Assembly (NCBI RefSeq): GCF_001412595.2
Contig: NZ_CP012640.2
Coordinates: 434,001-498,000 of the forward strand
Reading direction: 5' to 3'
DNA length: 64,000 nt
DNA from: Massilia sp. WG5
GTDB taxonomy: Bacteria > Pseudomonadota > Gammaproteobacteria > Burkholderiales > Burkholderiaceae_D
Shown here: in pieces, positions 15,926 to 32,357 of the stretch
Layout of the letters: every line of letters begins with the position of its first letter
Numbering within the stretch: position 1 is the stretch's first letter
The notes under the pieces: generated by a model
Told to the model about the DNA's origin: nothing
The model's input: only the letters and a program-made list of their open reading frames with translations
Databases searched by the model: none
Made by a program: the position numbers and the translations under genes

Positions 15926-16366
15926 ATGAAACGTCGGAATTGGCAGATGGCGGGACTGCTGCTGGCGGCCGCGCTGCCGGCGGCGAATGCGGCCGCCCAG
16001 CTCGACGAACTGCTGCACAAGGGCGAACATGGCCTCGACATGAAGGGCATGGCCGGCATGGCAGGTTCGCCGCTGAGCTCAGGCAGCATGGGCAATGTGG
16101 CCGGTCTGCTGCAGTACTGCATCGGCAATAAGTACCTGAGCGGCGGGGGTGCGGAGTCGGTCAAGGACCAGCTGATGGCGAAGCTGCCCGGCGGCGCCGA
16201 CACCGAGGACCGCGGCTACAGTGACGGCCAGAAGGGACTGCTGCACGGGAGCAAGGGCAAGCTCCTGGACCTGGGCAGCGGCGGCGGTTTGACGGCCGAG
16301 GTCACCAAAAAGGCCTGCGACACGGTCCTGGCCCAGGCCAAGTCCTTCCTGCAGGCAGGCCCGTAG
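15926..16366 (+). CDS. DUF2501 domain-containing secreted protein
   Basis: Small secreted protein (146 residues) of the DUF2501/YjjA type, function unknown. A signal peptide (KRRNWQMAGLLLAAALPAANAAA) is followed by a Gly/Met-rich part and the family core LLQYCIGNKYLSGGGAESVKDQLMAKL, with a second Cys near the end (KKACDTVLAQAKSFL), so one disulfide is possible. GGAGG precedes the ATG. It is divergent from the M48-like lipoprotein gene across a 120-bp gap, and meets the recombinase gene tail to tail. Confidence 0.8.
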   Translation: MKRRNWQMAGLLLAAALPAANAAAQLDELLHKGEHGLDMKGMAGMAGSPLSSGSMGNVAGLLQYCIGNKYLSGGGAESVKDQLMAKLPGGADTEDRGYSDGQKGLLHGSKGKLLDLGSGGGLTAEVTKKACDTVLAQAKSFLQAGP

Positions 16367-16374
16367 CGCCAGGG

Positions 16375-17538
16375 CTAGAGGATGCCGTTCCCGTTCGCCG
16401 AGCGGATGATCTCGTCGTGCCGCTCGTTGTCGGTCTTGTGCAGATAGGCCGCCGTGGTGGCGATATTCGCGTGTCCGGCCGTGTCCTGCAGGGTCTTCAG
16501 TTGCACGCCGTTGTTCGCATGGTTGGTCAGCATGCTGTGGCGCAGCCAGTGCGCCGAGGCCTGGCGCAGGGTCGCGGCGGTGTCCTGGTCGCCCTGGGCA
16601 TCGGCGGCGCGCGCAGCGTCCGCGAACACCGCCTTGATGGCTTCCGCTGCGGCTTCGTCGGTAATGCGCGCCAGTTCGCGCGAACGGCTCGACAGCACCA
16701 GCGGGGTGCGGTCCGTGCGGCTGGATTGCGGCAGCAGTTCGAAGGCCTGGCGGTAGGATTGAAAGGCTTCCAGCATGTCCGGCGGCACCGGCAGGCGGCG
16801 CGGTTTATTGCCCTTGCCGAGGACGTCCAGCCACCAGCGGCCATTGCCTTCGGTGTAGATCGAGCCCATCGAGGCGCTGACGATCTCGTTCAGGCGGGCG
16901 CCCGTGTGCGCGAAGGCGATCAGCAGGAAACGGTCGCGGGCGCGGCGTCGGAACGCCGCCGGGGTGTCGGCCGGGCGTGCGGAAACGGTCTGCAGCGCGA
17001 GCGCAATGGCATTCTGGGTCAGGTAGCGTGTGATCCGGCTCGCGGACGGCGCCCGGACATTGCGCACCAGCGCGCCCGGATTGCGGCGCAGGTAGCCGGT
17101 CTGTTCGGCGAAGCCCATCAGGCCCTTCACGGCGATCATGGCCTGGCGCCGGCTCGGGTCGGACAGCGGCCCGGTGAACGGCCGGTAGCGCGGGTCGCTG
17201 CGCGGCCATTTGGTCCTGGAGATCCATTCCGGCGGCGGATTCTTGAGGAAGTCCTTGTAGGCGTTGAGATCGGCGACGTTCAGCTGGACCAGTGTTTTCC
17301 TTGCCTCTTCACGGCACCAGGTCAGGAAACGGTAGAGTTCCTTCTGCGAGTTCTGGATCGATTTGGCGCTCAGCTCGCCGTGTGCAATGAATTCGCGGGC
17401 GAGTTCGATGTCGGTAGTGGCTTCGGTGATCGCATCGTCGGCAAGGCGGTACATCTTCACGTGCGCGCGACCGCTCGGGCTGCTTGTGATCTCCTCCGGT
17501 GCTGACGGACCCAGGTCGATTGGCGTAAAGTTTGGCAT
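16375..17538 (-). CDS. tyrosine recombinase / phage-type integrase
   Basis: Site-specific tyrosine recombinase of 387 residues with an N-terminal SAM-like core-binding domain (about 65-190) and a catalytic domain. The catalytic set is complete: Arg in HTGARLNE, Lys in GKGNK, HxxR in HWLRH, His in GHANI and the nucleophile Tyr in TAAYLH. It is longer than XerC/XerD and has a PPEWISRTKWPRSDPRYRPF insert, so it is not a housekeeping Xer protein. It lies 1.7 kb from the dif-like site with no other mobile gene nearby. A 9-bp inverted repeat lies about 70-100 bp upstream of its start. It could be a solitary integrase left from an element, or a chromosomal recombinase with its own target. Confidence 0.9.
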   Translation of the reverse strand: MPNFTPIDLGPSAPEEITSSPSGRAHVKMYRLADDAITEATTDIELAREFIAHGELSAKSIQNSQKELYRFLTWCREEARKTLVQLNVADLNAYKDFLKNPPPEWISRTKWPRSDPRYRPFTGPLSDPSRRQAMIAVKGLMGFAEQTGYLRRNPGALVRNVRAPSASRITRYLTQNAIALALQTVSARPADTPAAFRRRARDRFLLIAFAHTGARLNEIVSASMGSIYTEGNGRWWLDVLGKGNKPRRLPVPPDMLEAFQSYRQAFELLPQSSRTDRTPLVLSSRSRELARITDEAAAEAIKAVFADAARAADAQGDQDTAATLRQASAHWLRHSMLTNHANNGVQLKTLQDTAGHANIATTAAYLHKTDNERHDEIIRSANGNGIL

Positions 17539-17608
17539 TGCTCGGGCTGGAACGAGTGAAAAGGGCTGTATCTATGTACAGTATAGCATTTTGCCTGTCC
17601 GGATATTG

Positions 17609-17639
17609 AACTCGACAATATATTTGGTAATGTCGAGTT
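17609..17639. repeat. inverted repeat AACTCGACA / TGTCGAGTT upstream of recombinase
   Basis: Two perfect 9-bp arms separated by 13 AT-rich bases, in the AT-rich leader of the recombinase gene. On the minus strand a plausible -10 (TATACT) lies between this repeat and the start codon. Arm and spacer sizes suit a tyrosine-recombinase core site as well as an autoregulatory operator; the sequence alone does not decide. Confidence 0.5.
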
Positions 17640-17798
17640 AAGGATAGCGGTGTTTCGCGCGGGCGGCCGATCGCCCACTCGTGGCGAATCGACGACACAG
17701 CCGTCCGAAATCCTGTGCAGTACGAACGCATGCCGGCGACGAGGCGTAGGATGAAGGACATTGCCGCATCCTCTACCCCGACCGTGGTCGAGACCAAC

Positions 17799-18083
17799 AT
17801 GACCGCAATACGTCTGCTCATGCCAGGCCTGGCGTTCGCCGCCAGCCCTCCCCTGGCCGCGCCGGACTACACGATCCGGAATGCGCTTACCGGTACCGAC
17901 ATCCGCCCGGTCGCGTTCGGCAACGGCGGCGACTTCGTCTTCCAGGACATCGATCCCGCTGCGGGCCGTGTGCTGGCGAATGCCGGCGACATCCCGGTGC
18001 TGGCACCCCTACCCGCGCCCCGGGCCAGGCTCATGCCGGCGCGCGGGATCGCCCTGCTCCTGCTGCGCGCTCGCCGAGGATAG
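17799..18083 (+). CDS. short hypothetical protein, possible PEP-CTERM-type remnant
   Basis: A frame of about 94 codons just before the acyl-CoA reductase gene. It begins MTAIRLLMPGLAFAASPPLAA, a weak signal-like start, has a middle DIRPVAFGNGGDFVFQD, and ends with a hydrophobic run then RARRG, which recalls a decayed PEP-CTERM sorting tail. No clear family. GAG is the only ribosome-site-like element. It may be a remnant or not coding at all. The remainder of 17539-17798 holds the recombinase promoter region and nothing else seen. Confidence 0.3.
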   Translation: MTAIRLLMPGLAFAASPPLAAPDYTIRNALTGTDIRPVAFGNGGDFVFQDIDPAAGRVLANAGDIPVLAPLPAPRARLMPARGIALLLLRARRG

Positions 18084-18088
18084 TCGCC

Positions 18089-20074
18089 ATGTATTACTTC
18101 GTCACCGGGGCCACCGGGTTCATCGGCAAGCGACTGGTCAGGAAACTCCTGGCCTCGCCCGACAATGTGGTCTGCTTCCTCCTGCGGGACAGCAGTCGTT
18201 CGAAGCTGCCGGGATTACTCGACTACTGGAGCAGCGATGCCGCGCATGCCATCCCCGTGAGCGGCGACATGCTGCAGGATGGACTCGGCGTGGCCGCCGA
18301 CCTGCGGGCCGAACTGCTGGGCAAGATCGACCATTTCTTCCACCTGGCGGCCATCTACGACCTGCGGGCCGACCCTGCCGAACTCGCCGCCGCGAACATC
18401 GACGGCACCCGCCGCGCACTCGCGCTGGCCGAAGCCCTGCAGGTGCGCCGCTTCCACCACATGAGCTCGATAGCCGTGGCCGGCATGGTCCAGGGCGTCT
18501 TTCGCGAGGACATGTTCGACGAAGCGGCATGTCTCGACCACCCCTATTTCGCCACCAAGCATGCGGCCGAAGCGATCGTACGCGGCTGCCGCGCCCTGCC
18601 CTGGCGAATCTACCGGCCAGGGCTGGTCGTGGGAGACTCGCACACCGGCGAGACCGACAAGGCGGACGGCCCCTACTATTTTTTCAAGGCGATCCAGCGC
18701 ATCCGGGGACTCCTGCCGCCCTGGTGTCCGGCGATCGGCATCGAGGGCGGGCGCATCAACATCGTGCCGGTGGACTACGTGGTCGCCGCCGCTCACCATA
18801 TTGCGCATCTGGAGGGGCTCGATGGCCAGTGCTTCCACCTGACCGACCCGGACACCAGGCGCGTCGGTGAAATCCTGAGCATCTTCGCCCGCGCCGCCCA
18901 TGCGCCGCCGATGAGCCTGCGTGTCAACGTTGCGATGCTCAAGCTCCTGCCCGACTGGCTGCGCAGGGGCATCGCCGTGCTGCAGCCGGCGCAACGCCTG
19001 TACCACACCTTGATGCGCGATCTCGGCCTGCCGGAAGGTATTTTGCATCTGCTTAACTGGCCTACCCGCTTCGACAACAGACAGGCGGCGGCCGCACTGA
19101 GTGGGAGCGGGATCGCCTGCCCGCCGCTGGAACAATATGCCAACGCGATATGGGATTACTGGGAGCGCCACCTCGACCCCGCGCTGCTGGCCGGCCGCAG
19201 CCTGCCGGACAAGATCGCCGGCAAGGTGGTGCTGGTGACGGGAGGCTCTTCCGGCATCGGCCTGGCAAGCGCGCGCCGTCTGGCCCAGGCCGGCGCCGTG
19301 ACGCTGATCTGCGGGCGCGATCCGGCGAAGCTTGCCGCCGCACGCGCGCAGGTCCAGGCTTGCGGCGCCGACCTGTCCGTCTACCAGGCCGATCTCGCCG
19401 ACATGGACCAGTGTGACGAGCTGGTACGGAAGGTGCTCGAGGACCACGGCCATGTCGACGTCCTGATCAACAATGCCGGGCGCTCGATCCGGCGCGCGGT
19501 CGATGCAAGCTATGACCGGTTCCACGATTTCCAGCGCCTGATGCAGCTGAACTATTTTGGCGCGCTCCGGGTTTCGCTGGGCCTGCTGCCGACGATGGCG
19601 GCGCGCGGCGCCGGTCACGTCATCAACATCTCCTCGATCGGGGTGTTGACCAATGCGCCGCGCTTCTCGGCCTATGTCGCTTCGAAAGCGGCCCTCGAAG
19701 CCTGGAGCTATTGTGCTGCGGCGGAGTTCGCCGACACCGGTGTCCGGTTCACGACGATTAACATGCCCCTGGTGCGGACACCCATGATCGCGCCGACTGC
19801 GGTGTACCGCGACGCACCCGCGCTGACGCCCGACGAGGCGGCGCAGTTCGTGGTGCGCGCCCTGGTCGAGCAGCCCGCGCGTATCGCCACCGACATCGGC
19901 ATGCTCGGCCTGGGCGTCCAGGCCGTGGCGCCCCACCTGTCGCAGGTGCTCATGAACACGGCTTACCGCTTGTCTGCCGATATGGACGGCGGCGCCGGCG
20001 CCACGCCGTCCGCGGAGCAAGCCTCGGCGCAGCTGCAAGCCCTGCAGCATTTGTTGCGCGGCGTGCATTTGTGA
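18089..20074 (+). CDS. bifunctional fatty acyl-CoA reductase (acyl-CoA to fatty alcohol)
   Basis: Two-domain reductase of 661 residues, the same length as I recall for the Marinobacter four-electron fatty acyl-CoA reductase, and similar along its whole length. N-terminal extended SDR domain: TGATGFIGKRLV, then HHMSSIAVAG and a YFATK catalytic pair. The central part includes FDNRQAAAAL and YANAIWDYWERHLDP, as in that family. C-terminal SDR: TGGSSGIGLA, NNAGRSIRRAVDASYDRFHDF, NISSIGVLTNAPRFSAYVASK with a second Tyr-Lys pair, and NMPLVRTPMIAPT. It reduces fatty acyl-CoA via aldehyde to alcohol with NADPH. The wax synthase gene starts one base after its stop, so the two are translationally linked. 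Confidence 0.9.
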   Translation: MYYFVTGATGFIGKRLVRKLLASPDNVVCFLLRDSSRSKLPGLLDYWSSDAAHAIPVSGDMLQDGLGVAADLRAELLGKIDHFFHLAAIYDLRADPAELAAANIDGTRRALALAEALQVRRFHHMSSIAVAGMVQGVFREDMFDEAACLDHPYFATKHAAEAIVRGCRALPWRIYRPGLVVGDSHTGETDKADGPYYFFKAIQRIRGLLPPWCPAIGIEGGRINIVPVDYVVAAAHHIAHLEGLDGQCFHLTDPDTRRVGEILSIFARAAHAPPMSLRVNVAMLKLLPDWLRRGIAVLQPAQRLYHTLMRDLGLPEGILHLLNWPTRFDNRQAAAALSGSGIACPPLEQYANAIWDYWERHLDPALLAGRSLPDKIAGKVVLVTGGSSGIGLASARRLAQAGAVTLICGRDPAKLAAARAQVQACGADLSVYQADLADMDQCDELVRKVLEDHGHVDVLINNAGRSIRRAVDASYDRFHDFQRLMQLNYFGALRVSLGLLPTMAARGAGHVINISSIGVLTNAPRFSAYVASKAALEAWSYCAAAEFADTGVRFTTINMPLVRTPMIAPTAVYRDAPALTPDEAAQFVVRALVEQPARIATDIGMLGLGVQAVAPHLSQVLMNTAYRLSADMDGGAGATPSAEQASAQLQALQHLLRGVHL

Positions 20075-20075
20075 C

Positions 20076-21521
20076 ATGAATGCCGGCGCCGACCAGAAGG
20101 AAATGCTGGCCGCGGTCGACGCCGCGTGGCTGAGGATGGACCGGCCCTGCAATCTGATGATGATCTGCGGGATGCTGCTGCTGGACGCGGCGGTCGACCT
20201 TCCGGCGCTCCGGGCGCTGGTCCGGGACCACATGCTGTGCTTCCATCGCTTTCGCCAGCGCGTGGTCGACACCGGCGCCGGGCCGTACTGGGAAACCGAC
20301 CCCGACTTCGACCTCGACTGGCACGTGCGGCGCGTACCCCTGGCGCCCGGCGGTCCGACGCTGGAAGAACTCACGAGCGAGCTGATCAGCACGGCGCTGG
20401 ACGCGCGCCGGCCGATGTGGCAATTCCACCTGATCGAGACGGCCGACGCCGGCGCGCTGGTCATGCGTATCCATCACTGCTATGGCGATGGCTTTGCGAT
20501 GCTGCACCTGCTGGATGCGCTCACCGAGATCGTGCCCGGGCAACGGAAGATGGCCGGCGTCGACCTGGCGCCGGCGCAGCCTGCGCGCAGCGCATGGGAA
20601 CGCGTGCTGGGCAGCGTGGGCGAAAGCGTCGGCGACGCACTGCGCGAGCTGCGCTCGGTAGCGGGCACGGGCGCCGCACTGCTGGCCGATCGCGGCGCCG
20701 CGATCGATGCCGCGCGCAGCGGCGCCGACCTCGTCCGCCAGGCCGCGGTGATCGCCAACATGGCGCCGGACGCGCCGAGCCGGCTCAAGGGCGAGCTGGG
20801 CGTGATGAAGCGCGCCGCCTGGACGGACACCATACCGCTGGAAGAATTCAAGGCGGTTGCCGCGATCCTCGGATGTTCGGTCAACGACATCCTCATGGCC
20901 TGCACGGCCGGGGCACTGCGGGCCTACCTTGACGAGGCGGGCGACCCGATCGGCAGTCTCGACCTGCGCGCACTGGTGCCGGTCAACCTGCGCCCGCCGG
21001 GCCCGCTGACCGAATTGGGCAACCACTTCGGCCTCGTCTTTCTCGACCTGCCCGTCGGGATCGACGATCCCGTGCAGCGCGCGCTCGAGGCACACCTCCG
21101 CATGGAGTCGCTGAAGCAATCCAGGCAGCCCCTGGTCGCGTTCGGCATCCTCGCTGCGATGGGGGTGTCGCCGGCATTCCTGCGCGAGCGGATCCTGGAG
21201 GCGCTGGCGGCCAATGCCAGCGTGGTCGTCACCAACGTGCGCGGCGCCGCCGAGCCGCGTTACCTGGCCGGCCGGCGCATCATGCAGGAGATGTTCTGGG
21301 TGCCGCAGTCGGGCGGCATCGGCATCGGCATCAGCCTGCTCAGCTATGCCGGCCAGGTCAGCATCGGCGTGGTCGCGGACGCGCGCCGGGTGCCCGATCC
21401 GGCAGCCATCCCGCGACTGTTCGCAGCGCAGTTCGAAGCCTTGCTGTTATCGGCATTGATGCTGCCCTGGCCGGGCCAGCCGGGCGCCCTGGCGTCCCGC
21501 CGGCCGCGCAACCATCGGTAG
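20076..21521 (+). CDS. wax ester synthase / acyl-CoA:diacylglycerol acyltransferase
   Basis: WS/DGAT enzyme (481 residues) that joins acyl-CoA to a fatty alcohol or diacylglycerol, giving wax esters or triacylglycerol at the membrane or lipid-droplet surface. The catalytic HHxxxDG motif appears as HHCYGDG, preceded by RPMWQFHLIE as in the family. The C-terminal domain is also typical (VNDILMACTAGALRAYL, LRALVPVNLRP, GNHFGLVFLDLPVG, TNVRGAAEPRYLAG). The first helix reads MLAAVDAAWLRMD, like the family start MSPxDxxFLxxE. It directly follows the acyl-CoA reductase, giving a matched fatty-alcohol and wax-ester pair. Confidence 0.92.
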   Translation: MNAGADQKEMLAAVDAAWLRMDRPCNLMMICGMLLLDAAVDLPALRALVRDHMLCFHRFRQRVVDTGAGPYWETDPDFDLDWHVRRVPLAPGGPTLEELTSELISTALDARRPMWQFHLIETADAGALVMRIHHCYGDGFAMLHLLDALTEIVPGQRKMAGVDLAPAQPARSAWERVLGSVGESVGDALRELRSVAGTGAALLADRGAAIDAARSGADLVRQAAVIANMAPDAPSRLKGELGVMKRAAWTDTIPLEEFKAVAAILGCSVNDILMACTAGALRAYLDEAGDPIGSLDLRALVPVNLRPPGPLTELGNHFGLVFLDLPVGIDDPVQRALEAHLRMESLKQSRQPLVAFGILAAMGVSPAFLRERILEALAANASVVVTNVRGAAEPRYLAGRRIMQEMFWVPQSGGIGIGISLLSYAGQVSIGVVADARRVPDPAAIPRLFAAQFEALLLSALMLPWPGQPGALASRRPRNHR

Positions 21522-21531
21522 CGCTTCCCGG

Positions 21532-22206
21532 CTAATGGCGCGCGGTGCCGCCCTGGCCGTGGCGCCCGGGCTGCGGCAAGCCCGCCCCGCCCGCGTGGCT
21601 GGCGCCGGTAATGCCGACCAGCACCTCGCGAACCGTTCCCACCGCCATATTGCTGATATCGCCGGCTGCCGAGATCGCGCCCTCGGCGGCGCGCGCGCCA
21701 ATCCTGCCGGCGTCGCCGCCCGTCTCGCCGACCGCATCGAGGATGCCGGCGATGGCCTGGCGGGCGATCGTGCCCAGGTCCGCGCCGAGTGCGGCGCCGG
21801 CCATGATCAAGGCGCGCATCGTGTCGAACGAGGCCAGGACGATGTCGCCGCCGACGTCGTGCACGCCGGCGACTATGCCTTTCGAGACGCCGCGCACGCT
21901 CATCGTGAGTCCCGTGCCGACATGCTCGCTTGCGGCGAGGGCGCCGCGGACCACTTGCTCGATGACGGCCGTCAGCCCGGCCGCCGCGCCGCCCCCGATC
22001 CCGAGCGTGTCGGCGACGGTCTTGCGCGCGAGCGCGGCAATCTGCGCCTCGACGGTCTCGAGCGCCGTCAGGCTGGCGGCGACGCCCTGCTGGACCGCAT
22101 GTCCTGCGTGTTCGGCCGCCGCCTGGCCATTGCCGCTTTGTGCCTCGCCGGATTTGGCGGCGACCTCATCCCGTGCGCCCGGTTTCGTGGTATGCCTGGT
22201 CATCAT
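21532..22206 (-). CDS. Ala/Gly-rich amphipathic protein, possible lipid-granule protein
   Basis: A 224-residue protein of no recognised family, facing the wax synthase gene tail to tail (10 bp) and divergent from fadD. A hydrophilic start (about 1-45) leads into long Ala/Val/Gly-rich helical stretches with regular small residues (SVRGVSKGIVAGVHDVGGDI; AIAGILDAVGETGGDAGRIG). There is no signal peptide and no classical membrane span, which suits a protein lying on a hydrophobic surface. GAGGAG precedes the ATG. The setting inside the wax-ester locus suggests a granule-associated role; that is inference. Confidence 0.7.
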   Translation of the reverse strand: MMTRHTTKPGARDEVAAKSGEAQSGNGQAAAEHAGHAVQQGVAASLTALETVEAQIAALARKTVADTLGIGGGAAAGLTAVIEQVVRGALAASEHVGTGLTMSVRGVSKGIVAGVHDVGGDIVLASFDTMRALIMAGAALGADLGTIARQAIAGILDAVGETGGDAGRIGARAAEGAISAAGDISNMAVGTVREVLVGITGASHAGGAGLPQPGRHGQGGTARH

Positions 22207-22301
22207 GTCAGCTCCTCATCGAATGGTGGTGGAAATCCTGAGGGTCGACCATCAATGTAGTGTACCGGCGGCGCGCCCCCTAAGGTTTGCTTGACGCGAA
22301 T

Positions 22302-22315
22302 TTGACTTAGATCAG
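22302..22315. promoter_or_regulatory. FNR-box-like dyad TTGACTTAGATCAG
   Basis: Eight of ten defined bases match the FNR/ANR consensus TTGAT-N4-ATCAA. It lies in the 200-bp divergent gap between the granule-like gene and fadD, about 98 bp before the fadD start. An FNR-type regulator is encoded 6 kb away. A weak match; functional use is inference. Confidence 0.35.
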
Positions 22316-22406
22316 AAACCGTAAGACGATTATTCAGTCTTTCTTAATGTGTGCCGTACGATAAGGTGATGCAAGGTAGCGAGCGCCTTTTCCAGCGAGG
22401 CCGGCA

Positions 22407-24107
22407 ATGGAACAGATCTGGCTCACCAGTTATCCCGAGGGCGTCGCGGCGCAGGCGGACGTCGATGCCTTTCCTTCACTGAACGGCTTGTTCGACTGGA
22501 TCTGCCGCCGTTTCGCCGGCCGGCCGGCGTTCGTCAACCAGGGCGCCTCCCTGAGCTGGGACCGGCTGGATGCCTTGACGCGCGATTTCGCCGCCTACCT
22601 GCAGGGCGTGGCCGGACTGGGCAAGGGTGACAGGATCGCCATCATGCTGCCGAACCTGTTGCAGTACCCCGTCGTGCTGTTCGGCGCCCTGCGCGCCGGC
22701 TGTACCGTGGTCAACGTCAATCCGCAGTACACGGCGCGCGAGCTGCAGCACCAACTGGCGGACAGCGGTAGCGCCGCGATCGTCGTGCTGGACAATTTTG
22801 CGCATGTCCTCGAGCAGGTCCTGCCCTCCACGACAGTGCGGCACGTGATCGTCACCCGGGTAGGTGAAATGCTGCATTTCCCCAAAGGGCAAATCGTCGA
22901 CCTGGTGGTGAAGCACGTGCGGCACATGGTGCCGGCGTGGCACATCGGCACGGCGCAAGGGCTTTCCGACGTGCTCGCGCGGGGTGCGGCGCTGGCGCTG
23001 GCCCCGGTCGAGGTGACGCCGGCCGACATCGCCTTCCTGCAATATACGGGCGGCACGACCGGGGTTCCGAAAGGAGCCATACTGACCCATGCGAACATGG
23101 TCGCGAACATCCAGCAGACCGCCACCTGGGTCGTCGGCACGCTGGAGGAAGGCGGCGAGACGGCGATCGTTCCGCTGCCGCTGTACCACGTGTTCGCACT
23201 GACCGCCACCCTCACCTTCTGCCGCCTCGGCGCCGCGATCGTGCTGATCACCGACCCGCGCGACATGCCCGCATTCATGCGCGAGCTGAAGCATCAGCGC
23301 TTCACGGTCATCATCGGCGTCAACACCTTGTTCAATGCCCTGCTCGACCGGCCTGAGCTGAAGAAGGTCCACATGGACGGCGTGAAGCTGGTCGTTGCCG
23401 GCGGCATGGCGGTCCAGCGCGCCGTGGCCGAGCGCTGGCAGCAGCAATGCGGCGCCCCTATCCTGGAAGGCTACGGACTGACCGAGGCGTCGCCGATCGT
23501 CTGCGCGAATCCCCCGGACATGCGCAGTTTCAGCGGGTCGATCGGCTTGCCCCTGCCTTCCACCGAGGTCGCGATCATGGACGAGCGCGGAGCGGCGCTG
23601 GCGCCCGGCGAGCCGGGCGAGATTTGCGTGCGGGGCCCCCAGGTGATGCGCGGCTACTGGAACATGCCCGACGAAACCGCTGCGGTATTCCATCCGGGCG
23701 GGTGGTTACGGACCGGCGACGTCGGCGTCATGGACGAGCGAGGCTTCATCAAGCTGATCGACCGCAAGAAGGACGTCATCGTGGTTTCCGGATTCAAGGT
23801 GTATCCGAATGAGGTCGAAGACGTGCTCGCCATGCATCCCGGGGTGGCCGAAGCCGCCGCCATCAGGGCGCCCGACCCGCATTCGCAGGAAGTCGTGAAG
23901 GCTGTCGTGTACCGGCGCGAACCCGGGCTCGAGGCGGACGAGCTGCTCGCCTATTGCAGGCTGCACCTGACGGCCTACAAAGTACCCAAGTACATCGTGT
24001 TCTGGGATCATCCGCTGCCGAAATCTCCGATCGGCAAGATCCTGCGACGCGTCGTACAGGCGGAAGAACACGCGCGGGAAGCTGTTGTCGCCGAAGTCGG
24101 CCGATAG
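22407..24107 (+). CDS. fadD: long-chain fatty acid--CoA ligase
   Basis: AMP-forming acyl-CoA synthetase (566 residues), making fatty acyl-CoA from free fatty acid, ATP and CoA at the membrane. Motifs in order: the P-loop-like YTGGTTGVPKGAILTH, LPLYHVFALT, VVAGGMAVQRAVAERW, EGYGLTEASP, GWLRTGDVGVMDERGF and the FadD-type linker DRKKDVIVVSGFKVYPNEVEDV, with the catalytic Lys in KSPIGKILRR. GAGG precedes the ATG. Its product feeds both the acyl-CoA reductase and the wax synthase, so it completes the fatty-acid-to-wax-ester route within this locus. Confidence 0.93.
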   Translation: MEQIWLTSYPEGVAAQADVDAFPSLNGLFDWICRRFAGRPAFVNQGASLSWDRLDALTRDFAAYLQGVAGLGKGDRIAIMLPNLLQYPVVLFGALRAGCTVVNVNPQYTARELQHQLADSGSAAIVVLDNFAHVLEQVLPSTTVRHVIVTRVGEMLHFPKGQIVDLVVKHVRHMVPAWHIGTAQGLSDVLARGAALALAPVEVTPADIAFLQYTGGTTGVPKGAILTHANMVANIQQTATWVVGTLEEGGETAIVPLPLYHVFALTATLTFCRLGAAIVLITDPRDMPAFMRELKHQRFTVIIGVNTLFNALLDRPELKKVHMDGVKLVVAGGMAVQRAVAERWQQQCGAPILEGYGLTEASPIVCANPPDMRSFSGSIGLPLPSTEVAIMDERGAALAPGEPGEICVRGPQVMRGYWNMPDETAAVFHPGGWLRTGDVGVMDERGFIKLIDRKKDVIVVSGFKVYPNEVEDVLAMHPGVAEAAAIRAPDPHSQEVVKAVVYRREPGLEADELLAYCRLHLTAYKVPKYIVFWDHPLPKSPIGKILRRVVQAEEHAREAVVAEVGR

Positions 24108-24150
24108 CGCTTCCGGGCACATCGAGCGTCACTGGACGTGGGAGAACGGG

Positions 24151-24633
24151 ATGGCAATGAAGTCGAGTGGGAAGGCGAGCGGGCCGGACGGCATCGCCGA
24201 GGCGGTGGCCGCGTCGGCCCAGCAGATCTGGCAGGCCGGGCTGGGCGCCTACGCCAAGGCGCAACAGGACGGCGGTGCGCTGTTCGACAGCCTGGTGCGC
24301 GAGGGCGCGGAACTGCACAGGCTGACCCAACAGTTTGTCGGCGATCCGGCACCTGGCCTGGGAGGCAAGGTCGGCCGACTGGCGGAAAGCGTCGGCCGGC
24401 AAGCCAGCGGGTCATGGAAGACGATCGAAAAGATCTTCGAGGAGCGGGTGGCGCGTTCCCTGCGCGGCCTGGGGGTGCCGTCGCGCGACGAGGTGGAAGC
24501 CCTGCGGCGCGACATCGCTGCGCTCAGGGCCGCCATCGAAACCGACGGCCAGGCGGTACCAAAGCCCCCGAAGCGCCCGGCCACGAAGCGCGCGACCAGG
24601 TCCGCCGGCGCAAAACCGCAGGATATCGGATGA
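24151..24633 (+). CDS. phasin family protein (PhaF/PhaI type)
   Basis: Granule-associated phasin, 160 residues. An amphipathic helix with IAEAVAASAQQIWQAGLGAYAKAQQDGGALFDSLVREG is characteristic of PhaI/PhaF-type phasins; LGVPSRDEVEALRRDIAALRAAI is the usual coiled-coil, and a Lys/Ala/Pro-rich tail (KPPKRPATKRATRSAGAKP) recalls the DNA-binding tail of PhaF. The ATG at 24151 has a GGGAGAA ribosome site. No PHA synthase is seen in the window, so it may coat wax/triacylglycerol bodies here rather than PHA (inference). Confidence 0.88.
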   Translation: MAMKSSGKASGPDGIAEAVAASAQQIWQAGLGAYAKAQQDGGALFDSLVREGAELHRLTQQFVGDPAPGLGGKVGRLAESVGRQASGSWKTIEKIFEERVARSLRGLGVPSRDEVEALRRDIAALRAAIETDGQAVPKPPKRPATKRATRSAGAKPQDIG

Positions 24634-24639
24634 ATCGAC

Positions 24640-25419
24640 ATGGCCTGGGCACGATTTCCCTATCCGGACCAGCGTTTCCATTATTCCGCCGCCGGCCTGA
24701 AGGAAGCCTGGCGCGGATTGCATGCGGGCGACGCCGAACCATGGCCGCGCGGCGCCGCGCTGGTGGAGGCCTGGATCGCCTTCCATGCGGGCGACTTCGA
24801 ACAGGCGGCGAAAAAGGGATTGGCGCTCGGCCTGCCCGGCCACGCCGTCGCCAACAAGGCGAGCTGCATGCAGGCGGTGTATCTGGACCGCTCGGCCGAT
24901 ACCAAATGCGAACGCTTGCAGGAAGTGATCCGGCGCTGCGAGCTGCAACAGGCCCAGCAGCCGGAGAAGGCTGCCGCGTTCTACTGGCACGCATATGCGC
25001 TGGGCCGCTATGCGCAGGAAATCTCGGTCGTGCAAGCCCTGGCGCAGGGTATTGGCGGCAAAGTCAGGGCCAGTCTCGATGCGACCCTGGCACTGGCGCC
25101 GCGCCATGCCGACGCCCATATCGCGCTAGGGGTGTATCACGCCGAGATCATCGACAAGATCGGCGCCGTGATCGCTCGCCTCAGCTACGGCGCGAGCCGG
25201 GCGGACGCGATCGCGCATTTCAAGAAGGCATTGAGCCTGAATCCGGCCTCGGCCATCGCCAGGGTCGAGTACGCAAGGGCCCTGTCGATGCTCGACGGGC
25301 GTGGCGCCGACGCGGAAGCGGCGGCCCTGCGCCGCGAAGCCGCGGACGCCGAGCCGCACGATGCCATGGAAAGGCTCGATATCGAACGCGCACGGCAGGA
25401 GCTTGCAGCACAGGCCTGA
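24640..25419 (+). CDS. TPR-type helical repeat protein
   Basis: A 259-residue protein built from helical hairpins of TPR type: AALVEAWIAFHAGDFEQAAKKGLALG, KAAAFYWHAYALGRYAQE, ADAHIALGVYHAEI and ADAIAHFKKALSLNPASAIARVEYARAL. It has no signal peptide, so it should be cytoplasmic. It begins 6 bp after the phasin stop and is followed by the lipase-like gene 27 bp on, so it is part of the storage-lipid cluster. TPR proteins usually mediate protein contacts; the partner is unknown. Confidence 0.8.
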   Translation: MAWARFPYPDQRFHYSAAGLKEAWRGLHAGDAEPWPRGAALVEAWIAFHAGDFEQAAKKGLALGLPGHAVANKASCMQAVYLDRSADTKCERLQEVIRRCELQQAQQPEKAAAFYWHAYALGRYAQEISVVQALAQGIGGKVRASLDATLALAPRHADAHIALGVYHAEIIDKIGAVIARLSYGASRADAIAHFKKALSLNPASAIARVEYARALSMLDGRGADAEAAALRREAADAEPHDAMERLDIERARQELAAQA

Positions 25420-25446
25420 GCGCCAGACACCCATACGGAGACCGGT

Positions 25447-26463
25447 ATGATCGCGGACCGCTTTTTCGACGCGGGGCGGCAACGCGCCGGGCTGGTCGCG
25501 ACCATGTTCGAGTCGACCCGCCAGCGCGATGCCGTGCTGGCGGCACTCAACGGATTGATCGGCGATCAGCTGGCGAATACCGGCAACGTACTGGCGATCC
25601 CGATGTGCCTGCGCCAGCGCGGCCAGCCCTTGCCTCTCGAGCGCGTGGCATTGGCGGCGGCGATGCCGGCGCCCGGCGCCAGGCTGGTGGTACTGGTACA
25701 CGGGCTCTGCTGCAATGATCTGCAATGGCTGCGCCGTAACCACGACCATGGCGTCGCGCTGGCCCGCGATCTCGGCTACGTGCCGCTGTACCTGTACTAC
25801 AACAGCGGACGCCATGTTTCCACCAATGGCCAGGAGCTCTCGATGCTGCTCGATACCTTGCTCGACGCCTGGCCGGTTTCGGTCGATGAGCTTGCCATAC
25901 TGGCGCACAGCATGGGCGGGCTGGTGGCGCGCAGCGCCTGCCACTACGCCCGCATGGGAGGGCGTCGCTGGCTGGGACGCCTGAGGCAGATGGTTTTCCT
26001 CGGCGTGCCGCACCATGGCGCGCCGCTGGCGCGGCACGGCAACTGGCTTGGCAGCCTCCTGGGAAGCAATCCCCTCACCGCCCCGCTTGCCCGCCTTGGC
26101 GAGCTGCGCAGTGCCGGCATCACCGACCTTCGATACGGCAATCTGCTCGACGAGGATTGGCGCGGCCGCAACCGGTTCGCCCACGAAGCCGACACCCGGC
26201 GCCACGTGCCCTTGCCGAGGGGGATCAGGTGCTACACGATTGCCGGATCGACCGGAAAACGCCCGACCGACCTGCGTCACCGGCTGCTGGGGGACGGACT
26301 GATACCCGTTGACGCTGCGCTGGGCCGGCATGCGGAACGCGCGCGCCAGCTGAACTTTCCGGCTTCTCGCCAGTGGGTGGCGTTCGACACCCACCATCTC
26401 GATCTGCTTTGCCGGGTCGAGGTGTACGAAAAAATCCGCGCATGGCTGGGCGAAGCGCACTGA
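25447..26463 (+). CDS. alpha/beta hydrolase, lipase/PGAP1-like
   Basis: Alpha/beta hydrolase of 338 residues. VVLVHGLCCNDLQW supplies the oxyanion-hole segment, LAHSMGGLVARSACHYARM the nucleophile elbow (Ser in AHSMG, as in PGAP1- and lipase-type members), LLGDGLIPVDAAL a likely acidic residue, and FDTHHLDLL the catalytic His. No signal peptide is apparent, which points to an intracellular esterase or lipase. Placement after phasin and TPR genes suggests mobilisation of stored wax ester or triacylglycerol (inference). Confidence 0.82.
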   Translation: MIADRFFDAGRQRAGLVATMFESTRQRDAVLAALNGLIGDQLANTGNVLAIPMCLRQRGQPLPLERVALAAAMPAPGARLVVLVHGLCCNDLQWLRRNHDHGVALARDLGYVPLYLYYNSGRHVSTNGQELSMLLDTLLDAWPVSVDELAILAHSMGGLVARSACHYARMGGRRWLGRLRQMVFLGVPHHGAPLARHGNWLGSLLGSNPLTAPLARLGELRSAGITDLRYGNLLDEDWRGRNRFAHEADTRRHVPLPRGIRCYTIAGSTGKRPTDLRHRLLGDGLIPVDAALGRHAERARQLNFPASRQWVAFDTHHLDLLCRVEVYEKIRAWLGEAH

Positions 26464-26482
26464 GCGCTTCGATCATCGCAGC

Positions 26483-27046
26483 ATGCCGACGATGTCGACT
26501 GTCACCTTTCTCATTCTGGCCAACAGCGCGGCGTATTTGCTGGAGCTGGGCATGGCACCGGAGTTGATGGCCAGTCTGGTCTTGTGGCCGCTGCGCGAGG
26601 GCTTCATGCCGTGGCAACTGGTGAGCTATGCCTTCCTGCACGCAGGCCCGGCTCACCTGGCCGTCAACATGTTCGGCCTGTGGATGTTCGGGCGGGATGT
26701 GGAAGCCTTGCTGGGCAGGGCAGCGATGTTCAGGCTTTATTTTGCGAGCGTGCTTGGGGCGGCGCTGACGCAACTGCTGGTGGCGGCCGCCAGCGATGTC
26801 CCATCCGCGACGCTGGGCGCCTCCGGCGGCGTGTTCGGTGTCCTGCTGGCCTACGCGGTCAGTTTTCCGCGGCGCATTATCGTCCTCTTGTTCCCCCCGA
26901 TCCCAATGCCGGCCTGGTTGTTCGTCAGCCTGTACGCGGGCCTGGAGCTCACGCTCGGCGTCATGGGATCGGACGCCGGGGTGGCGCATTTTGCGCATCT
27001 GGGCGGCATGGCGGGCGCCTTTGTCGTGCTGCGCCGCCAGCGCTGA
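26483..27046 (+). CDS. rhomboid family intramembrane serine protease
   Basis: Six-helix rhomboid of 187 residues. The conserved HAGPAHLAVNMFGLWMFG loop, catalytic Ser in GASGGVFGVLLAY and catalytic His in VAHFAHLGGMAGA are all present. It cleaves membrane-anchored substrates within the bilayer; substrates cannot be guessed. It starts 19 bp after the lipase-like gene without a strong ribosome site and ends 7 bp from the convergent Hsp20 gene. Confidence 0.92.
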   Translation: MPTMSTVTFLILANSAAYLLELGMAPELMASLVLWPLREGFMPWQLVSYAFLHAGPAHLAVNMFGLWMFGRDVEALLGRAAMFRLYFASVLGAALTQLLVAAASDVPSATLGASGGVFGVLLAYAVSFPRRIIVLLFPPIPMPAWLFVSLYAGLELTLGVMGSDAGVAHFAHLGGMAGAFVVLRRQR

Positions 27047-27053
27047 CGAGCCT

Positions 27054-27494
27054 TCAATGGATTTCGAGACGGTGCGTGCCGGCCTCCGCCTTTTTCGGCA
27101 AAGTCAGCTTGAGAACGCCGTTTTCGTAGCGGGCCTCGGCCTTCGGGTCATCGACCGGACATTGCAGTGTGAACGCCCGGTATTGCTGGCCCCAATGACG
27201 TTCGCTGCGCACAGTGTTTCCCTTTTTCACCTCGGTGTCCTGTTTGCGCTCAGCCGAAATCACGACCTGGTTGCCGTCGACCTCGACCTTGATGTCCTCC
27301 TTGTTCATGCCGGGGATGTCGGCGGTAATGGCATACGCCTGCTCGGTCTCCTCGACGTCGATCCGGATTGCGGGCATGTCCTGGTCCCAATGGGCGGGAT
27401 GACGGAATTCCCGAAGCAGCTCACCGAAGCCGCGGCGCGGATCAAACGGCATCAGGTCGGCGAAGGGCTCGAAGGGCGTAAGATGATTGGCCAT
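27054..27494 (-). CDS. Hsp20/alpha-crystallin small heat shock protein
   Basis: Small heat shock chaperone of about 146 residues that holds unfolding proteins. The alpha-crystallin domain runs from AIRIDVEETEQAYAITADIPG to about residue 135, with VEVDGNQVVISAERK and the closing ARYENGVLKLTLPK motif, and a short C-terminal extension (THRLEIH). The second ATG (27494, MANHL) is chosen because GAGGAG is eight bases away; the first ATG is only two bases from it. It lies 80 bp downstream of the FNR-type gene on the same strand. Confidence 0.93.
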   Translation of the reverse strand: MANHLTPFEPFADLMPFDPRRGFGELLREFRHPAHWDQDMPAIRIDVEETEQAYAITADIPGMNKEDIKVEVDGNQVVISAERKQDTEVKKGNTVRSERHWGQQYRAFTLQCPVDDPKAEARYENGVLKLTLPKKAEAGTHRLEIH

Positions 27495-27575
27495 GATCAT
27501 TTCTCCTCGGATTGGTGCCGATGCGATGGAGTGTGCGGCGGGCGCGGGATCGGCAGACCGCGCCTGCGCGGTATC

Positions 27576-28343
27576 TCATGCGCCAAGGCTTTCCGGGGCT
27601 GCGGCCAGCGCCTCCAGGCGGCGCATGTCGAGGATCTCGAGTTCGCGCCGGTCCAGCCGGATCAGGCCCTTGTCGCGAAAGCGCGCCAGCTGCCGGCTCA
27701 CGGTTTCCAGCGTCAGGCCGAGGTAACGCGCAATATCGTCGCGCGACATCCGCATCTGGAACCGGCGCGACGAGAATCCGCGCATGGCATAGCGGGCGGA
27801 CAGGTTCAGAATCAGGCTGGCCAGGCGCTCTTCCGCGCTCAGGATGCCGAGGAACCGGATTGCCGACTGGTCGCGCAGGATTTCCTGGCTCATCGTTCTA
27901 TGAAAGTGATCCATTACTTTCGGTATCTCGGCCATCACCTGCCGCAGCCGCTCGTAGGGGATCTCGCAGACTTCGCTGTCCTCCAGGGCAAGGGCGGTGC
28001 TGGCGTGCTCGCCGTTACCGATGGCGTCCATGCCCAGGAGATCGCCCGCCATCTGGAAGCCGGTGATGTAGCGCTTGCCGCGGTGATCGCTGCGGCAAGT
28101 CATGAAATGGCCGAAGCGCACGGCGAACAGGTTGCCGAAAGCTTGTCCGGCACGGAACAGCGGCGCGCCGCGAGCCACGCGGCGCCGGCAGCCGATCGCA
28201 CTTTCCAGCCGGGTCATCTCATTCTCGGTCAGTCCCAGCGGAAGGCAAAGCGTGCGGTAGGCACATTGTCCGCACTTTCCACCGAAGGACTGGCTATCGA
28301 CCCGTTCACGTGCCGGCTTGATCTGCAGTATCTGTTCAGTCAT
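27576..28343 (-). CDS. fnr: FNR-type oxygen-sensing transcription regulator
   Basis: CRP/FNR regulator, 255 residues from the ATG at 28343 (GAGGAA seven bases upstream). Four Cys fit an oxygen-labile [4Fe-4S] cluster: Cys24, Cys27 and Cys33 in KCGQCAYRTLC and Cys126 in EVCEIPYERL, which matches FNR Cys122. The HTH reads MSRDDIARYLGLTLETVSRQLARF, with Glu213, Ser216 and Arg217 in the places that read TTGAT in FNR. It should activate or repress genes at low oxygen via TTGAT-N4-ATCAA sites; a perfect site occurs at 32191-32204. Confidence 0.93.
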   Translation of the reverse strand: MTEQILQIKPARERVDSQSFGGKCGQCAYRTLCLPLGLTENEMTRLESAIGCRRRVARGAPLFRAGQAFGNLFAVRFGHFMTCRSDHRGKRYITGFQMAGDLLGMDAIGNGEHASTALALEDSEVCEIPYERLRQVMAEIPKVMDHFHRTMSQEILRDQSAIRFLGILSAEERLASLILNLSARYAMRGFSSRRFQMRMSRDDIARYLGLTLETVSRQLARFRDKGLIRLDRRELEILDMRRLEALAAAPESLGA

Positions 28344-28454
28344 CGATTGTTCCTCGCTTTTTATTGGCAATGATTTAAGGAGTATCGGACTGGATCGGGT
28401 AGGCGGGCAGCGTGTATTCCGTCAAAGCGGGGTCAGGGCTGCTTGACAGGCGAC

Positions 28455-28470
28455 GTAGGGTATCCCCTAC
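28455..28470. promoter_or_regulatory. 16-bp dyad GTAGGG-TATC-CCCTAC
   Basis: Perfect 6-bp arms with a 4-bp spacer between the LuxR-type regulator stop and the FNR-type gene promoter region. No T-run follows, so it is unlikely to be a simple terminator. It could be an operator for either regulator. Confidence 0.3.
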
Positions 28471-29114
28471 TAGATCAAGCCTTGCTCCAGCGCATAGCGG
28501 GTCAGCTCGGCATTGCTCGACATTCCCATCTTCTCGAGGATGCGGGAGCGATAGGTGGTCACCGTATTCGGGCTCAGGTGCAAGCGCTCACCGATCTGCA
28601 CCAGCGGCTCCCCCTTCGCGATCAGCTTGAACACCTCGAGTTCGCGGTTCGACAAGGCATCGTGTCCGGAGGCGGCGCTGTCGCCACTGACCAGCGAGGC
28701 CAGCTTGTCCACCAGCGAGGGACTGACATATTTGCGCCCGGCCACCGCGCGCCGCACCGCTTCGATCAGCACGGCCGTCGGCGCGTCCTTGGTAAGGTAG
28801 CCCGCCGCGCCCTGTTTCAGCGCCCGAACGGCGTAAATTTCCTCTGAATAGGTGCTCAGCACGAGCACCGACATCGCGGGGTGCAGGCTGCGCAAATGGC
28901 GCAGCAGATCCAGTCCGTTCATCCCGGGCATCGTGATGTCGACCAGCGCCACATCGAATGCCTGGTGCCGCAGCAGCTCGAGCGCCTGGCTGGCATCCGC
29001 CGCTTCGCCGGCGACGTCGATATCGCCGGCCGTGTCCAGCATCAGCCGGACACCGTTGCGCGCGATCGCGTGATCGTCCACCAGGAGTACGCGGACCCGT
29101 TCAGACCTCATCAT
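28470..29114 (-). CDS. NarL/FixJ-type two-component response regulator
   Basis: Response regulator of 214 residues: receiver domain with Asp pair DD at 13-14, phospho-acceptor Asp59 in VALVDITMPGMNG and Lys in YLTKDAP, followed by a LuxR-type HTH (LSNRELEVFKLIAKGEPLVQIGERLHLSPNTVTTYRSRILEKMG). It overlaps the sensor kinase gene by 14 bp, so the kinase with HisKA_3 at 29101-30585 is its likely partner. Target genes are unknown. Confidence 0.93.
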   Translation of the reverse strand: MMRSERVRVLLVDDHAIARNGVRLMLDTAGDIDVAGEAADASQALELLRHQAFDVALVDITMPGMNGLDLLRHLRSLHPAMSVLVLSTYSEEIYAVRALKQGAAGYLTKDAPTAVLIEAVRRAVAGRKYVSPSLVDKLASLVSGDSAASGHDALSNRELEVFKLIAKGEPLVQIGERLHLSPNTVTTYRSRILEKMGMSSNAELTRYALEQGLI

Positions 29115-30585: not shown

Positions 30586-30600
30586 GTCAGGGCAGCTCGC

Positions 30601-32091: not shown

Positions 32092-32190
32092 GCTGTAAAT
32101 ACATGAATTCGGCCATCATAGAGATTATTTTGCTCAATATCAAAGCTAATGCGCCAGTTTTCGCAACTTCTAGCAGAGATTTAGCTCTTC

Positions 32191-32204
32191 TTGATCTGCA
32201 TCAA
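32191..32204. promoter_or_regulatory. perfect FNR box TTGATCTGCATCAA
   Basis: Matches the FNR/ANR consensus TTGAT-N4-ATCAA at all ten positions. It lies in the divergent gap between the PAS kinase operon (start 32091) and the SYLF gene (start 32358). A second, partial site TTGATCGGAGTCAT follows at 32278-32291, about 73 bp before the SYLF start, a distance that would suit activation. An FNR-type protein with the matching recognition residues is encoded at 27576-28343. Confidence 0.7.
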
Positions 32205-32357
32205 GTAAAGCCCCTCCGGCGGCAGGACAGCGCCTTGGCTTGTGCCCTATGCATGACAGAGATATTGAATAGGCTTCTTGATCGGAGTCATACCAGAGAG
32301 GCCATTTCAAGGACTAGCATTGAGCTGTTCCAATTCTCAAGAGTGAAGGAGTATGTC

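Follow-up and report, generated by a model that had tools for sequence, protein, structure and literature searches.

In Marinobacter, the wax-ester pathway combines the reductase Maqu_2507 with a wax ester synthase/diacylglycerol acyltransferase (WS/DGAT). The same two enzyme families, with the same two-domain architecture of the reductase, are encoded by a gene block of Massilia sp. WG5 that lies in a window of 64,000 nucleotides (the whole stretch of DNA that was analysed). However, in this block the genes for the fatty acyl-CoA reductase (FAR) and WS/DGAT adjoin and are grouped with genes for FadD, a phasin, a TPR protein, a protein designated P224 and a hydrolase; we know of no comparable block in Marinobacter.

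In Burkholderiales, Galvan et al. (2023) described two scaffolds carrying WS/DGAT together with a MAQU_2507-like reductase (59%) and a PHA-system protein, and a phasin was located on another Burkholderiales scaffold (available part of PMC10351704). Unlike in the present block, an acyl-CoA binding protein adjoins WS/DGAT in their material. In the available part of that text, the words "tetratricopeptide", "TPR" and "oxygen" do not occur, and neither a TPR protein nor a link to oxygen is named. Thus, FAR paired with WS/DGAT had already been reported from Burkholderiales, and the preliminary description, which had regarded the arrangement as undescribed for this group, went too far in this respect; for the full set of parts, no published description was found. 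The new elements are the phasin and TPR protein that track WS/DGAT, the P224 family under purifying selection and a conserved FNR-type box. The block is probably an oxygen-responsive module for the storage of wax esters in droplets.

Gene content and the wax-ester enzymes

Open reading frame and profile scans placed all six genes named in the preliminary description at 18089-26463 and on the strand given there (Table 1). The P224 gene, which was absent from that gene list, is convergent with the WS/DGAT gene and divergent from fadD, from which it is separated by a gap of 200 bp.

Table 1. Features of the block (window coordinates)
Feature	Position	Strand	Basis
Fatty acyl-CoA reductase (FAR), 661 aa, NAD_binding_4 + adh_short, PRK07201/Maqu_2507 type	18089..20074	+	profiles, motifs
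Wax ester synthase/diacylglycerol acyltransferase (WS/DGAT), 481 aa, HHCYGDG	20076..21521	+	profiles, motif
P224, 224 aa, Ala/Gly-rich, predicted all-helical	21532..22206	-	family scans, relatives
FNR/ANR-type box TTGACTTAGATCAG, 2 mismatches to TTGAT-N4-ATCAA, P224-fadD gap	22302..22315	+	motif test, 7 blocks
FadD-type long-chain acyl-CoA ligase	22407..24107	+	profiles
PhaF-type phasin, PF05597	24151..24633; longest ORF from TTG 24085	+	profiles
TPR protein, RMDN/PTPIP51-like fold, candidate lipid-handling protein	24640..25419	+	relatives, structure search
Alpha/beta hydrolase, DUF7379/PGAP1/DUF676 type, candidate wax-ester lipase	25447..26463	+	profiles, motif

The two SDR domains reported earlier for the reductase were recovered as NAD_binding_4 (residues 5-234) and adh_short (residues 379-568). 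The protein scored 881.9 bits against NF005539/PRK07201 (cut-off 549) over residues 1-660, so that its length of about 660 aa, its two-domain architecture and its score all agree with the family; the motifs GATGFIG, YFATK and YVASK were found at residues 7, 153 and 529. We take it to be of the Maqu_2507 type from the published description, and reduction of acyl-CoA to alcohol is its predicted function. WS/DGAT, whose gene indeed starts one base past the FAR stop codon, scored 373.1 bits against TIGR02946 (cut-off 309.95), carries the HHxxxDG motif at residue 133 and was the single match at E≤0.001 within its own genome. FadD contains TGGTTG at residue 214. The hydrolase matched DUF7379, PGAP1 and DUF676, each slightly above the cut-off, and has AHSMG at residue 153.

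WS/DGAT enzymes may have triacylglycerol as their main product, and TIGR02946 spans both activities. The locus could therefore serve triacylglycerol synthesis, with WS/DGAT acting mainly as DGAT and the fatty alcohol or aldehyde from the reductase having another use. Among 250 genomes of the order, FAR was present in 33 at E≤1e-100; three of the 35 genomes with WS/DGAT (G118, G194 and G230) gave no FAR match at this threshold, but the other 32 did. Moreover, the two genes lie one base apart in Massilia sp. WG5, G305 and G296, and no Kennedy-pathway family was detected in the seven block proteins scanned. Triacylglycerol as the purpose of the locus is therefore considered unlikely.

Distribution of the phasin and the TPR protein

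The phasin scored 119.3 bits against PF05597 (cut-off 28.8), and this match was near full-length (positions 7-122 of 126), as in PhaF/PhaI phasins; against TIGR01837, a PHA granule protein family, it scored 94.6 bits (cut-off 94.7). By eye, ATG 24151 appeared a likelier start than TTG 24085.

The genomes of the order were surveyed with thresholds of 1e-100 for FAR, 1e-20 for WS/DGAT, 1e-15 for TPR, 1e-5 for PF05597 and 1e-20 for PhaC. Scoring covered no more than 4 (FAR), 6 (WS/DGAT), 10 (TPR) or 16 (PF05597) candidates in each genome, and some distant matches may therefore have escaped detection. The co-occurrence and distance test used only the best-scoring FAR, WS/DGAT and TPR place in each genome, and its presence tables and places were entered by hand from the survey results.

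PF05597 is named for PHA granules, and since two PhaC_N matches are present in the Massilia sp. WG5 genome, the phasin could serve PHA. The fadD-phasin-TPR-hydrolase half would then belong to PHA metabolism and merely neighbour the wax genes. However, PF05597 was found in 35/35 genomes with WS/DGAT and in only 2/133 genomes that had PhaC without WS/DGAT. All 37 genomes with PF05597 were positive for PhaC, and in 28 of them a copy lay no more than 10 kb from FAR, WS/DGAT or TPR. Therefore, the phasin family in this order does not follow PHA synthase but follows WS/DGAT, and assignment of this half of the block to PHA metabolism is very improbable.

The TPR protein also tracked WS/DGAT (30/31 in the 250 genomes); this steady partnership is beyond what the reading of a single sequence could show. 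In structure comparison, it shared its fold with lipid-type TPR proteins, namely PTPIP51 and a sterol transporter. The TPR domain of PTPIP51/RMDN3 and bacterial TPR carriers (7cc7, 7t1s, 8g52) have the same fold, but the block protein, judged by eye, lacks a signal peptide or membrane anchor. The top structural matches were tied with a TPR protein of Thermus for which no ligand is stated, and fold likeness alone shows no function. PF21033 was matched by 9/22 TPR relatives at E≤1 (best 4.3e-5); the protein of the window gave no match, although a precomputed table lists this family for a protein 100% identical to it. Lipid binding or transfer is its predicted function.

The P224 family

P224 matched no Pfam or NCBIfam family and thus represents an unnamed family. 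It is under purifying selection, with dN 0.03 and dS 0.14 in the pair G015/G002 and dN 0.11 and dS 0.70 in the pair G305/G296.

P224 occupied the same place and orientation in 5/5 blocks found via FAR, two further blocks were found using P224 as the query, and in an Oxalobacteraceae MAG (L083) it adjoins WS/DGAT. On the other side, relatives with no block gene within about 9 kb on either side were present in Massilia TW-1 (G285), N. autotrophicum and a deltaproteobacterial MAG, and two short beta-proteobacterial MAG contigs (L084, L088) carry relatives with no block gene there. P224 might thus be a general membrane or stress protein that only shares the FNR-type promoter; given its constant position in the blocks, this is less likely than not. 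In the deltaproteobacterial MAG, the relative adjoins HMA_2, DUF5132 and a P-type ATPase; a link to ferrosomes is no more than an idea, and among the papers listed in a literature search none contained DUF5132.

P224 was rejected as a phasin, since it lacked PF05597 and hhalign against 12 phasins gave a probability of 0.2%; PF09361 appeared in one relative only (E 0.21). The eukaryotic Senescence domain (PF06911; spartin, ERD7) binds droplets and transfers lipid, according to the available part of PMC10705495. This domain was matched by only 2/40 P224-family members, weakly and below the cut-off (best 21.9 bits, cut-off 24.6), and not by the protein of the window, so membership was not accepted; one reversed and four shuffled control sequences gave no PF06911 match. 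Other matches among the relatives were probably due to chance (T4_tail_cap in 7/40, best 0.0011; DUF6781 in 1/40 at 0.0042). A Foldseek search gave nothing at E≤0.001; its best matches were designed helical repeats, which may reflect no more than a common arrangement. In a profile search of solved chains, designed helical repeats again matched (E 1e-8), as did a tape measure protein.

FNR-type box and oxygen

Links between wax storage and oxygen are known chiefly from Euglena, where wax esters form anaerobically, and from mycobacterial dormancy. An FNR-type box was present in the P224-fadD gap of 7/7 blocks, with 2, 1, 1, 1, 1, 0 and 2 mismatches to the consensus. The motif was noticed by eye first; ranking against palindromes and 2000 single-base shuffles were done afterwards. 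Both summed five lineages, excluding Noviherbaspirillum as well as G002, which is almost a twin of G015; in the ranking, the box came out best of 1024 palindromes of the same layout. In Massilia sp. WG5 the box taken by itself is weak, as it has two mismatches and similar boxes abound across the window (24 against 7.84 expected). No FNR-type box was found in the 500 bp before FAR. An FNR-type gene scored 226.1 against NCBIfam Fnr (cut-off 228).

Since P224 and the fadD-phasin-TPR-hydrolase genes share the gap that holds this site, the module is probably oxygen-responsive. Binding of FNR at the box, as well as the sign of its effect, is a prediction from the DNA. The mention of low oxygen in the preliminary description fits with the box.

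Proposed function of the block

In the preferred reading, FadD would activate fatty acids, FAR would convert acyl-CoA to fatty alcohol, and WS/DGAT would join this alcohol to a second acyl-CoA. The wax product would collect in droplets, on which the PhaF-type phasin would form a coat. P224, being helical and expected on lipid surfaces, is probably a second droplet coat, and the TPR protein probably binds lipid or carries it between membrane, enzyme and droplet. Together with a GMC oxidoreductase and an aldehyde dehydrogenase in some relatives, the hydrolase would turn wax back to fatty acid. The module may store surplus reductant besides carbon. The earlier proposal that the locus makes, coats and mobilises wax esters fits its anatomy and is strengthened by the two enzymes of the relatives; the wax ester itself is the predicted product.

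A GMC oxidoreductase gene adjoins FAR in four relatives, and an aldehyde dehydrogenase gene lies at the block end away from FAR in four. Such neighbours would also suit a locus for the catabolism of waxes, alcohols or alkanes from outside the cell, in which these enzymes, FadD and the hydrolase import and oxidise long-chain compounds and WS/DGAT stores the surplus. However, neither enzyme is among the seven genes of the window, the hydrolase appears by eye to have no export signal, and the PF05597 phasin accompanies WS/DGAT throughout. Such a catabolic locus is improbable.

If the storage-droplet reading holds, Burkholderiales would have a compact, testable wax-ester droplet module, in which the TPR protein and P224 would be two as yet unstudied candidates for droplet proteins. 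The role given to PhaF-type phasins in the order would need correction, and wax storage in bacteria would be tied to the sensing of oxygen. A bolder and rather doubtful version would see the block as an oxygen-controlled module for a bacterial lipid-droplet organelle: with a TPR protein that functions like PTPIP51 and with P224 as a coat or lipid-transfer protein distantly like Senescence proteins, pieces of the eukaryotic droplet-contact toolkit would have counterparts in a wax-ester operon, and the PhaF-type phasins of the order would be wax-droplet proteins mislabelled as PHA proteins.

Conservation and surroundings of the block

The survey of gene order called for earlier revealed an identical order of the seven genes in seven genomes, including Massilia sp. 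WG5 (Massilia and one Noviherbaspirillum). M. agilis JCM 31605 and M. solisilvae JCM 31607 are among the Massilia that carry the block. Because six other genomes share this order, chance assembly is unlikely. The full block is patchy (5/62 genomes of the genus), and different genes flank it in different species, as judged from the short flanks obtained around the other blocks (about 0.2 to 6 kb). Patchiness and differing neighbours make transfer and repeated loss both possible.

A mobile element was considered and rejected: no direct repeat of at least 18 bases was found in 16000-28500, the GC content of the block (0.677) was close to the window mean (0.668), and among plasmid records only two, both from Tsukamurella, matched FAR at E≤1e-80. 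Scans of the window for tRNA and Rfam families gave no match, and sigma-70 promoter and terminator scans gave matches not above chance. A tyrosine recombinase gene (16375-17538) lies just upstream of the block, and the Noviherbaspirillum block has another, different recombinase nearby.

The predicted wax-ester block and its conservation

The preliminary description had proposed a wax-ester locus, and its gene content was confirmed: the six genes named in it were present with the expected motifs. They encode a Maqu_2507-type fatty acyl-CoA reductase (FAR), a wax ester synthase/diacylglycerol acyltransferase (WS/DGAT), FadD, a PhaF-type phasin, a TPR protein with a lipid-type TPR fold and an alpha/beta hydrolase. 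A seventh gene, encoding a predicted helical protein (P224), had been overlooked.

Features of the window block and of related loci (unprefixed positions refer to the window)
Feature	Position	Strand	Remarks
Tyrosine recombinase (PF00589)	16375-17538	-	Just upstream of block
122-aa ORF	17715-18083	+	No Pfam match; immediately 5' of FAR
FAR	within 18089-26463	+	661 aa, two-domain
WS/DGAT	within 18089-26463	+	Starts one base after FAR
P224	21532-22206	-	224 aa; between WS/DGAT and fadD
fadD, phasin (PF05597), TPR protein, hydrolase	within 18089-26463	+	After WS/DGAT
Rhomboid protein, HSP20, FNR-type regulator, two-component proteins	26483-32091		Directly downstream of block
FNR-type gene	27576-28370		Three N-terminal cysteines and VCEIP cysteine
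Ysc84-domain ORF	32103-33083		Preceded by opposite-strand kinase gene
Perfect FNR-type box, TTGATCTGCATCAA	32191-32204		Just inside start of Ysc84-domain ORF
GMC oxidoreductase	L049:4000-5655; L082:13195-14880; L078:13183-14766; L048:13850-15433		Absent from window block genes
Aldehyde dehydrogenase	L049:14423-15247		G305; two-piece match (single in L050, L078, L082)
Tyrosine recombinase	L082:17023-18072		Near N. suwonense block; differs from that of the window
WS/DGAT	L028:8905-10239		G032, genus genome without FAR match; single ORF, 444 aa, 34% identity

Wax-ester production by FAR and WS/DGAT is known, and their pairing has already been reported for this order. In the accessible text of Galvan et al. 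2023 (PMC10351704), Burkholderiales WS/DGAT scaffolds encode both a PHA-system protein and a reductase resembling MAQU_2507 (59%), and a phasin is placed on a separate Burkholderiales scaffold. The earlier suggestion that the arrangement was undescribed for this group is therefore only partly right. What is new is the conserved seven-gene module, with its tied phasin, lipid-type TPR protein, P224 and conserved FNR-type box. A literature search, with subscription papers mostly outside its range, found no wax-ester work on Oxalobacteraceae or Massilia among the matches listed, and FNR-controlled bacterial wax synthesis was likewise absent from those listed. Neither a phasin nor a TPR protein appeared in the available text of a paper on halophilic archaea (PMC11948995).

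Among 62 genus genomes, FAR was found in seven and the TPR protein in six, all of them FAR-positive. The full block, with its order kept, was present in five (the window genome G000, G002, G015, G296 and G305). G308 contained GMC oxidoreductase (GMC), FAR and WS/DGAT genes and lacked TPR and P224; in G030, FAR, phasin and TPR were located together, with WS/DGAT copies at other places. When the P224 alignment was scanned against named genomes, 12 loci were obtained, three of which were the records of G002, G015 and G296. Among the nine further loci, those of M. agrisoli (L078) and N. suwonense (Noviherbaspirillum; L082) carried all seven genes with the order unchanged. Therefore, together with the five genus blocks, seven full blocks from two genera are known here. 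P224 adjoined WS/DGAT in a MAG (L083), and no block gene accompanied P224 in two short beta-proteobacterial MAG contigs (L084, L088) or its relatives in three identical N. autotrophicum stretches and a deltaproteobacterial MAG (L089).

Nine further window proteins (old yellow enzyme, two upstream proteins, integrase, rhomboid, HSP20, FNR and two two-component proteins) were searched for in the block flanks. None was found in the fetched flanks of the five other Massilia blocks, and HSP20 (49%) was the only one near the Noviherbaspirillum block. No direct repeats of at least 18 bases were found around the window block. GMC adjoined FAR in four relatives (L048, L049, L078 and L082), and aldehyde dehydrogenase (ALDH) lay at the opposite block end in four (L049, L050, L078 and L082). 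Together, GMC and ALDH would oxidise fatty alcohol back to fatty acid.

Association of the phasin with WS/DGAT

The same 250 evenly drawn genomes of the order were surveyed for all five families; positives numbered 31 for TPR, 35 for WS/DGAT, 33 for FAR, 37 for PF05597 and 168 for PhaC_N. WS/DGAT occurred together with FAR in 32 genomes (not in G118, G194 and G230), with TPR in 30 (not in G091, G172, G194, G210 and G039, the last with a distant WS/DGAT of 31% identity) and with PF05597 in 35. Conversely, the genomes positive for a partner but not for WS/DGAT were G239 for TPR, and G088 (FAR-positive, 84% complete) and G269 for PF05597. Fisher p values with WS/DGAT, which ignore relatedness, were 1e-40 for phasin, 2e-32 for TPR and 8e-36 for FAR.

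Because all 37 PF05597 genomes were PhaC-positive, PhaC presence alone cannot separate a PHA role of the phasin from a wax role. The contrast within PhaC-positive genomes does separate them: PF05597 was found in 35/35 genomes with WS/DGAT versus 2/133 without it. The WS/DGAT-positive genomes were spread over 12 families of the survey table; PhaC-positive genomes without WS/DGAT were also listed in eight of these families (f1, f3, f4, f6, f9, f10, f48 and f49), and they lacked PF05597 except for G088 and G269. Match starts lay at most 10 kb apart for FAR-phasin in 25/33 genomes, WS-FAR in 20/32, WS-TPR in 19/30, WS-phasin in 20/35, TPR-FAR in 17/28 and TPR-phasin in 16/30; nine of the 37 phasin genomes had no phasin within 10 kb of FAR, WS/DGAT or TPR. 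Given this order-wide co-occurrence and gene proximity, the PhaF-type phasin in this order looks like a neutral-lipid droplet protein, despite a family name derived from PHA granules.

FNR-type box

The FNR/ANR consensus is TTGAT-N4-ATCAA. A similar box was found in the P224-fadD gap (197-293 bp) in all seven blocks, with no mismatch in M. agrisoli, one each in G015, G002, G305 and G296, and two each in the window and N. suwonense. Summed over five lineages, this palindrome had 5 mismatches and ranked first of 1024 with the same layout (near variant CTGAT, 7; best unrelated, 9; mean 17.4, sd 2.3). Across 2000 shuffles, the minimum was 13, so that 5 was never attained. The background at up to two mismatches was 0.107 per 300 bp.

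A perfect box lay between GMC and an AMP-ligase gene in G308. One-mismatch boxes preceded ALDH in N. suwonense and lay at the presumed ALDH start in G305; two-mismatch boxes preceded GMC in both. Boxes were absent upstream of both ALDH and GMC in M. agrisoli and upstream of ALDH in G296; in the window, none lay upstream of the FNR gene or in the 500 bp preceding FAR. At up to one mismatch, two boxes (G308 and L056) were found in 13 further loci fetched from the order and genus, most of which carried WS/DGAT or FAR. Therefore, the box belongs to these blocks and not to WS/DGAT loci order-wide. The window as a whole was box-rich, with 24 boxes at up to two mismatches versus 7.84 expected, and its FNR-type gene scored 226.1 against NCBIfam Fnr, under the cut-off of 228. 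Because of the box and FNR-type gene data, fadD-phasin-TPR-hydrolase and P224 are likely to be under oxygen control across the blocks, and plausibly so in the window strain.

P224

P224 matched nothing in Pfam or NCBIfam. It looks like a genuine gene, because changes in close pairs fell mostly at third codon positions and dN/dS was approximately 0.2 for G015/G002 (dN 0.03, dS 0.14) and 0.16 for G305/G296 (dN 0.11, dS 0.70). The predicted structure (pLDDT 80.6, pTM 0.68) had six helices within residues 24-204, and the closest solved folds were designed helical repeats, which are uninformative. By profile comparison, P224 did not qualify as a phasin. A profile search of a 5.8-billion-protein set returned 28 matching proteins.

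The Senescence domain (PF06911; cut-off 24.6 bits) scored 21.9 bits against the deltaproteobacterial relative and 17.0 bits against that of N. autotrophicum, and did not match the reversed or four shuffled versions of the former. According to the accessible text of PMC10705495, this domain has lipid-droplet-binding and lipid-transfer activity. These sub-threshold scores make a tie between P224 and the Senescence domain a lead, short of membership.

P224 matches occurred in six of the 62 genus genomes, including a remote relative in Massilia TW-1 (G285), whose genome lacks FAR. By eye, this relative adjoined a sigma-factor-like gene and an apparent polysaccharide cluster. In the identical 18.5-kb N. 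autotrophicum stretches (L085, L086 and L087), the neighbours were an IS3-type transposase and a universal stress protein, and in L089 they were HMA_2 proteins, DUF5132 proteins and a cation P-type ATPase.
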